From the NCBI GenBank assembly GCA_020403045.1, contig JADBYK010000097.1:1-53867 (forward strand): DNA of 53,867 nucleotides, written 5' to 3'. The DNA is from Cytophagales bacterium (GTDB lineage: Bacteria; Bacteroidota; Bacteroidia; Cytophagales; Cyclobacteriaceae). Position 1 is the first letter of the stretch. The number at the start of each line of letters is the position of its first letter. Positions 52,204 to 53,867 of this stretch are shown piece after piece. The translations under genes and the position numbers were made by a program. Under the pieces are notes generated by a model. It saw only the letters and a list, made by a program, of their open reading frames with translations. It made no database searches and was not told the origin of the DNA.

Positions 52204-52695
52204 AATGACACCTACCCAATTGATCATCAATCCAGACTTGATGAGGTGGAGAAACGTAACTACTCCGCTGCCAATGCCCTTACCTGGATAGATGTTTCAA
52301 GTGTGCTTTTCTTTTTTGGAATACTGTTGGCAGTAGGTGCGCTTGAATCAATGCAGACGTTGCACCATTTTGCAACTTACCAAAGTGAAATGTTGGGAGA
52401 TAATCGAATAATTATTACGTTGATTGGGGCCGTATCCGCCATTGTTGATAATGTACCGTTGGTGGAAGCATGTATGGGGATGTATTCGTTAGATGTCTAT
52501 CCTATTGATAGCATGATTTGGGCGTATCTGGCTTATTGCGCTGGTACGGGTGGAAGCTTATTGGTAATAGGCTCCGCAGCCGGAGTTGCAGTAATGGGCA
52601 TGGAGAAAATGGATTTCATTTGGTACTTAAAGAAAATCAGTTTTCTGGCGCTAATCGGGTATCTGGGTGGCGCGCTCGTTTACTTGATGTTTTGA
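52204..52695 (+). pseudogene. NhaD-type Na+/H+ antiporter, C-terminal remnant
   Basis: An open stretch of about 163 codons with the last third of NhaD: WIDVSSVLFFFGILLAVGALESM, AIVDNVPLVEACMGMY, YCAGTGGSLLVIGSAAGVAVMG and WYLKKISFLALIGYLGGALVYLMF. The DNVPL and GTGGS motifs are family marks. A normal NhaD has well over 400 residues, so the first two thirds are missing; an in-frame TGA lies at 52201. A GTG at 52246 could make a fragment of 149 residues. It converges on another antiporter gene (52708). Confidence 0.75.
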
Positions 52696-52707: not shown

Positions 52708-53734
52708 TTAGATTACATCCTCAACTTTCTCAGAAGAGCTTTGCTTGTTCAACAACAAACCAATTGTCATCATCAGACCAGTAAAGACGATTACAATAAA
52801 GAGCACACCTTCACTTAGGCTTGCAATGCGTTGACTTTCGGGGATGCTGTAGAATAAAAGTATCGTGATCAATCCCCGAGGCGCTATTAATGTTAAAGGG
52901 GCTGAGTTTACTTTTAATACGAATTTTAAAAAAGCAAAGCGTAGCAGTAACGTGATAACAATGATAGCCAATCCCATTAAAAGAACTTCTTGGGATCCAA
53001 GCAGAAGCAAGTTGACGGAATAGCCAAAAAGTAGAAAAAAGAATGTGCGAATAATGAAAGCTGTTTCAGCGGTCATCAACTTTAGTTCTCTGGTTACCTC
53101 ACTAAGGCGATCAATTGATAAGAACCTATGAACAATCCGGAAATCAAACAATCTGAAATTGTTTAATACCAATCCAAAGCATAGCACCAAGATAAGCGAA
53201 GGGAGATGTAAAAGCTTTGCCAACGAATAGGTCAAAACAATAATGGCAAACGTGAGAAAAAATCGAATATGAGTAGTAACATGGTTAAGCAAAAAGATCA
53301 GAGATACGGTGCTAGCTATCGAAATAAGTAGAATAAGAATAACATCCCAGCCAAAACAAAATAAAGAACCTAATCCTGAGGAATGGTCAGCAACAAAATA
53401 GTTGAAAGCGATAATACCCAAGATATCGGAAAAGGTACTTTCATAAATCACAAACTCTTTTTTTTCCTCATTCAGAGCGCTAACGCTGGGAATAGCAATG
53501 GCACTGCTGATAACTGACAAGGGAATGGCGTGGACTAATGCCTGTTGAAAATCAGTGCCGTAGTAAGTACTGAATAATAACGCAATTAAACCCGATGTGA
53601 AACCAAGTAGTGCCAATGCCGATATGAACGCCCGACCAATCAATGGCAATTTTTTCTTTTCAATGGATAAATCAAGGGAAGCTTCCAACACAATAAATAT
53701 CAAACCGGTAATTCCTAAAATCTCTAGCAGTCGA
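52708..53734 (-). CDS. Cation/proton antiporter, 3' exon interrupted by a group II intron
   Basis: The frame gives about 342 residues after the intron, with ten or so hydrophobic helices. It begins LLEILGITGLIFIVLEASLDL, which matches an internal helix of CPA-family exchangers rather than a start. Conserved text is AIPLSVISSAIAIPSVSAL, FVIYESTFSDILGII (the Asp helix), LHLPSLILVLCFGLVLNN, FLLFGYSV and LIAPRGLITILLFYSIPE. The N-terminal helices must lie beyond the intron, outside the window. Read straight through, the frame opens at 53796 with MKGDFHVRF, but that is translated intron domain V. A functional protein therefore needs splicing. Confidence 0.75.
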
Positions 53735-53867
53735 GTCACCCAAGGGAGTTTCACCCTTAGGTTCTCACGGAACCGTACGTGAAAGTCTCCCTTCATACGG
53801 CTCTTCCTGTTTAATCACAAATGTATTTCTACATTATGGATATACCAACTTCCAGTGTGCGAATAAG
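53735..53867 (-). mobile_element. Group II intron, 3' part
   Basis: On the minus strand a GNRA-capped hairpin AATGTA-GAAA-TACATT (53820-53835) is followed by domain V (53770-53803). A domain VI-like stem CCTAAGGG/CCCTTGGG comes next, and the likely 3' splice end GTGAC sits at about 53735. The 5' part and any reverse transcriptase gene lie outside the window. A clear bulged branch-point A was not identified. Confidence 0.8.
53770..53803 (-). ncRNA. Group II intron domain V catalytic hairpin
   Basis: The 34-base hairpin GAGCCGTAT...ACGTACGGTTC (minus strand) carries the catalytic AGC triad and a GAGA tetraloop with paired GAAGG/CTTTC flanks, the standard domain V layout. Confidence 0.87.

Follow-up and report, generated by a model that had tools for sequence, protein, structure and literature searches.

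Passages of PMC4424553 describe most bacterial group II introns as located outside housekeeping genes, with some found within them, particularly in cyanobacteria, and an excerpt of PMC6003770 states in the same sense that housekeeping genes are seldom interrupted by such introns. According to the former, IIC introns insert at terminators and, in a smaller fraction, at attC sites; for the IIC-attC introns a section of PMC7923331 gives the consensus TTGT/T and an IBS1-EBS1 pairing of 3-4 bp. We have found a group II intron of a multicopy family that interrupts codon 61 of an antiporter gene behind its first base; it lies in the sense direction and probably inserted by an off-target route. Like the introns of protein-coding genes covered in parts of PMC4424553 (cyanobacterial, CL, ML), it lies in the sense direction and its splicing would restore the protein; it differs in that the host is here an accessory antiporter instead of a housekeeping gene. 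Group II introns in coding genes are already known and the antiporter case is a further example. In the collection of papers searched, no work joined group II intron, Bacteroidetes and antiporter.

The window, i.e., the whole stretch of DNA analyzed (53,867 nucleotides), is a complete contig (C122) of a 4.02 Mb assembly in 124 contigs, 98.96% complete. The features relevant here are all located at its right end:

52226 to 52695, plus strand: nhaD remnant lacking its 5' part (the C-terminal ~150 residues are left), the frame changing near 52240 (TIGR00775)
52708 to 53729, minus strand: exon 2 of an antiporter of the Na+/H+ exchanger type (PF00999), beginning with the second base of codon 61 and including the stop (from homologues)
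53730 to 53867, minus strand: 3' part of a group II intron, with the end of the IEP gene, domains V and VI and the 3' splice site (RF00029, 60.2 bits)
53731 to 53796, minus strand: false N terminus, 22 intron codons in frame with exon 2 (ORF 52708 to 53796)
53770 to 53803, minus strand: domain V, 34 nt with AGC triad, starting with GAGCCG (Rfam match)
53834 to 53866, minus strand: last 10 codons of the IEP (reverse transcriptase/maturase), LFAHWKLVYP, and its stop (read from the sequence)

The Rfam model Intron_gpII (RF00029) matched positions 53730 to 53805 of the minus strand over its full length (model 1 to 77) with 60.2 bits, the cut-off being 40 bits. This match, together with the GAGCCG start, confirms the domain V with AGC triad that a sequence-only reading of this DNA had located at 53770 to 53803; the 34-nt string occurs a single time in the window and was matched by none of 100 shuffles at up to three mismatches. 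The window and contigs C44 and C84 of the same assembly have a common sequence up to GGTGACTCGAC and are divergent beyond, so that the 3' splice site is placed after 53730, the last intron base, and the exon boundary proposed earlier (53735) had to be moved. The ORF 52708 to 53796 opens at an ATG within domain V and reads through into exon 2, just as had been noticed from the letters, and for annotation this means that a gene call from 53796 carries a false N terminus of 22 residues. The contig stops at 53867 and so contains neither the 5' domains nor the greater part of the IEP, nor any exon 1; the break was probably caused by the repetition of the intron.

The intron tail of 137 nt is present, 100% identical, at the start of one contig (C44:3-139) and at the end of another (C84:18643-18779), and a more diverged intron copy is located near the end of C38. 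Matches over some of the 137 nt were detected in 20 of the 62 genomes of the genus, the window genome counted (at least 100 nt in 8 of the 62), and in 31 of 291 genomes sampled from the wider order, many of these confined to domain V. A complete copy of 1923 nt in a genome of the same genus (L221, in G012) has a tail 99% identical to that of the window and a frame of 407 residues with the C-terminal end NLFAHWKLVYP. Two further copies of 1937 nt each (L074 and L075) were found in G186, a more distant genome of the order. In their 5' part they match the Rfam model group-II-D1D4-2 (80.3 bits), and their IEP, 411 residues long, matches TIGR04416 (group_II_RT_mat, 404.5 bits), has RVT_1 and GIIM as its sole Pfam matches at E up to 1, and has the GsI-IIC RT as best PDB match (202.4 bits). 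The short IEP with RVT_1 and GIIM as its only Pfam matches is a likeness of this relative to group IIC-attC introns such as S.ma.I2 (PMC4424553, PMC7923331). By these domains and the best PDB match of the G186 protein, the family may be IIC-like.

The 5' ends of the related copies read GTGTGTCTTGAA, the one of the window copy being off the contig. Two copies, L218 (754 nt) and L222 (757 nt), look ORF-less because they contain no frame of at least 120 residues. In a stretch of G041 (L217, 1825-3977) an intron begins at 1825, and ~1.4 kb further in there is another match resembling a 5' end; no frame reaches 120 residues here either, and the arrangement looks like one intron adjoining or sitting within another. 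In the window's own assembly there are three matching intron 3' ends vs. two 5' ends (C43 and C124). The latter are 98% identical to each other and 75-77% identical to that of L221, vs. 99% for the 3' tail, so that more than one subfamily may exist. The search for the intron reverse transcriptase that had been suggested yielded no RVT_1 by Pfam profile in this assembly, and the contig keeps only the last 10 codons of the IEP.

Directly after the intron there are 340 open codons, with the stop at 52708. Four full-length homologues of 400 residues are 70-78% identical over all 340 residues and have codons 1-60 joined directly to them, so that the frame 52708-53729 is without the first 60 residues present in the homologues. 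The intron was placed after the first base of codon 61 because the homologues continue uninterrupted there, and the DNA match to genome G028 ends no more than 2 bases from the intron edge. When we compared homologous loci, taking the best 80 of at least 583 confirmed candidates in the genome collection, in 78 of these 80 the frame upstream of the intron position was free of stops over 58 residues or more (a test that measures openness and does not prove a start codon), and the other two were cut by contig ends. A simple domain V pattern was absent from these best 80 of at least 583 loci. The comparison supports an intron inside the antiporter reading frame and in sense orientation, as the sequence-only reading had claimed; a start of the antiporter just after 53735 in relatives, which would have refuted this claim, was not what we found, since they have 60 further residues there. 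Precise splicing would restore the antiporter frame.

PF00999 (Na_H_Exchanger, cation:proton antiporters) matches three of five full-length relatives, L013 (2e-20, residues 17-387), L014 (5.6e-18, residues 17-384) and L018 (2.2e-16), with no match at E up to 1 in the other two (L020 and L040). The window copy shares this family with its uninterrupted relatives L013 and L014 but differs in being without the first 60 residues on the contig, and exon 2 alone gave no match to PF00999 at E up to 10, under HMMER filters that drop most weak matches. A search of solved structures with the antiporter alignment gave no match at E 0.001. Counting the window genome, 32 of 96 genomes gave a homologue, and in 6 of the 96, which include those with the four full-length ones, it is at least 70% identical; by this distribution the antiporter is an accessory gene, and the idea of an essential host gene was not sustained.

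Exon 2 is free of stops, frameshifts and excess amino-acid changes. Over 277 codons in common with G028 the dN was 0.064 and the dS 1.14 (ratio 0.056). The dN values of the window to four outgroups (0.156, 0.182, 0.177 and 0.233) were not in excess of those of G028 to the same four (0.171, 0.186, 0.193 and 0.263), the dS to the outgroups being saturated. Such conservation would be expected if the insertion is recent, and equally if splicing has kept the gene functional. The neighboring nhaD is in a different condition. In G028 (L091/L092) this gene is complete and located tail to tail with the antiporter, and the orientation is the same in the window. What is found here is 91.6% identical to residues 325-479 of that G028 nhaD and matches TIGR00775 at positions 277-412 of 420 with 142.7 bits, below the cut-off of 577.1 as expected for a fragment. 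Since the adjoining gene is a frame-shifted remnant, the locus is partly decaying. At the DNA level nhaD also matches two further places in the genome (C42 and C48).

Exon 1, which the sequence-only reading proposed to look for, could be located by neither route in the assembly (98.96% complete): the best protein match (E 0.098) covered 37 residues elsewhere on C44, and the sole DNA match to the contig of the nearest relative stops no more than 2 bases from the intron edge. Neither of the two 5' junctions seen in the assembly (C43 and C124) carries the antiporter exon 1. We also checked by synteny whether the 5' flank at C124 could be paired with a 3' end, using 8 of the 54 genomes with the C124 gene and comparing downstream genes of at least 90 residues with the window, C84 and the first 12 kb of C44; there was no match and no flank was paired. 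The split gene proposed at the outset therefore stands as regards an intron in sense within the frame; because neither exon 1 nor RVT_1 was found in the assembly, a split and spliced gene is not told apart from a 5'-less remnant.

It is possible, although we consider it the less probable course, that exon 1 was lost after the insertion, e.g., when intron copies recombined, and that what is left is a pseudogene without its 5' part next to a decaying nhaD remnant. The absence of exon 1 from an assembly this complete, the truncated and frameshifted nhaD and the several intron copies available for recombination are all in line with such a loss. On the other hand, three 3' ends vs. two 5' ends imply that at least one upstream flank is unrecognisable in the assembly, so exon 1 may be missing from it without having been lost, even if loss would also account for its absence; and exon 2 is without decay, though a recent loss would look alike. 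This alternative shares the insertion event with the reading that we prefer, and their probabilities overlap. In the preferred reading, off-target insertion with the gene kept, exon 1 would still be located upstream of the intron.

The insertion sites of related copies are near a core ACAAACGT/T, and for several the site is on the 3' arm of a palindrome that resembles attC. We scanned 20 loci with the exact motif GTGTGTCTTGAA and obtained a 5' end for 8 of them. The 5' exon ends were AAACACAAACGT in L217 and L218, AAACACAAACGC in L221, ATAGCCAAACGT in L222, TATACAAACCGT and TATACTAAACGT in the G186 copies, and, in the window's own assembly, AAACACAAATGT at C43 and TACTAAAGACGT at C124. The 3' exons begin with T in 15 of 17 copies, the exceptions being C44 (G) and the distant L230 (C); that of the C38 copy begins with C. 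A T at the start of the 3' exon is a likeness to the group IIC-attC introns of PMC4424553 and PMC7923331, and so is the position of several copies, judged by eye and from folds, on the 3' arm of such palindromes. Two differences from them stand out: the related 5' exons mostly end with CGT after an A-rich stretch, vs. the TTGT of the PMC7923331 section, and the window copy is in coding sequence, at a place where the homologous antiporter sites do not read TTGT.

From the eight 5' exons and sixteen 3' exons (L230 omitted) we built a target matrix, the antiporter not being used in building it. The site at codon 61 ranked 1st of 360 in G028 (a partial gene), 1st of 1189 in L013, 31st in L014, 2nd in L015 and 1st in L017, ranks that are not independent because the antiporter homologues are related. 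The antiporter codons at the site, ACN CAA ACN YTN, resemble the target core of the family. The exact core AAACGT was absent from the homologous sites checked, which read AAACAC (G028 and L014), AAACCT (L013 and L015) and AAACGC (L017), so that pairing there would involve four or five of the six bases. ACGTTT is found around intron nt 329-343 in five of the six copies with both ends (not in L217); being complementary to AAACGT, it is plausibly EBS1. These ranks suggest that the intron inserted off target, at a place that happens to match its usual one.

The folding of seven of the eight 5' flanks (L217 omitted) and of three antiporter homologues at the same distance did not cleanly separate the usual sites from the antiporter site. 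For L221 (z -1.97), L222 (z -2.66) and L074 (z -1.47) the prediction was a long stem that closes close to the insertion point; by eye we take these stems to be attC-like. The flank of L075 also folds well, through different pairs (z -3.66), and those of L218 (z 0.01), C43 (z -1.23) and C124 (z -0.17) did not stand out. The antiporter homologue sites (z -1.38, 0.47 and -0.20) had no stem closing near the site. A hairpin is thus common at the sites of the family yet not shown to be required, and we read the window copy as an off-target insertion on a short core. Four empty sites were rejoined: their longest stop-to-stop frames (106, 150, 83 and 81 codons) are all antisense to the intron, and the longest sense frames have 67, 47, 53 and 53 codons. 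With sense frames short at all four, none is within a long sense frame, unlike the window copy.

The events would have been as follows. A multicopy intron family, whose relatives encode a RT/maturase without recognised endonuclease domain and with GsI-IIC as nearest solved relative, would have met antiporter codons, ACN CAA ACN YTN, that allow exon-intron base pairing. Off-target retrotransposition guided by this pairing is the most likely way of entry at codon 61, because these codons resemble the core, and precise splicing would then give back the antiporter frame. We offer only as speculation, and a rather unlikely one, that an attC-targeting IIC-like intron came into a coding gene by chance codon match and that the antiporter is now splicing-dependent, with ion homeostasis coupled to maturase-assisted splicing.

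A chimeric assembly, with the intron end and the antiporter misjoined at a repeat, could be imagined since the contig terminates in one, but we reject it as very improbable: intron and antiporter meet at the 3' splice site, the reading frame of the exon agrees with that of the homologues and the site resembles other targets, none of which is expected of a random misjoin. Still less credible, and also rejected, is a naturally short antiporter starting just downstream of an intergenic intron, for although the longest ORF begins at the intron, the homologues have ~60 more N-terminal residues, similar in sequence, and exon 2 alone lacks the PF00999 match found in three of five full-length relatives.

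What makes the locus useful is that the resemblance to the targets of a repeat-seeking intron family speaks for an accidental landing in a gene, and that relatives of the same genus with the empty site are available for comparison. Should the antiporter prove to be spliced, nature would have provided a test of whether working genes can carry introns of this kind.

Other copies are found in varied surroundings. Intergenic attC-like palindromes (AACAAA ... CAAACGT) are the landing sites at C43 (L084, 9670-9789) and in the flanks of L221, L222 and L074, and a shorter match to the C43 copy is located at C84:16452-16493. The C124 copy (L083, 126-245) is ~34 bp past the stop codon of a conserved 259-residue gene present in 54 of 58 genomes of the genus; without a clear palindrome, it is perhaps another off-target insertion. 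At the end of C84 (L007) the intron 3' end is followed after 13 bp by the ATG of a ~188-residue frame that, by eye, resembles a Crp-type regulator.
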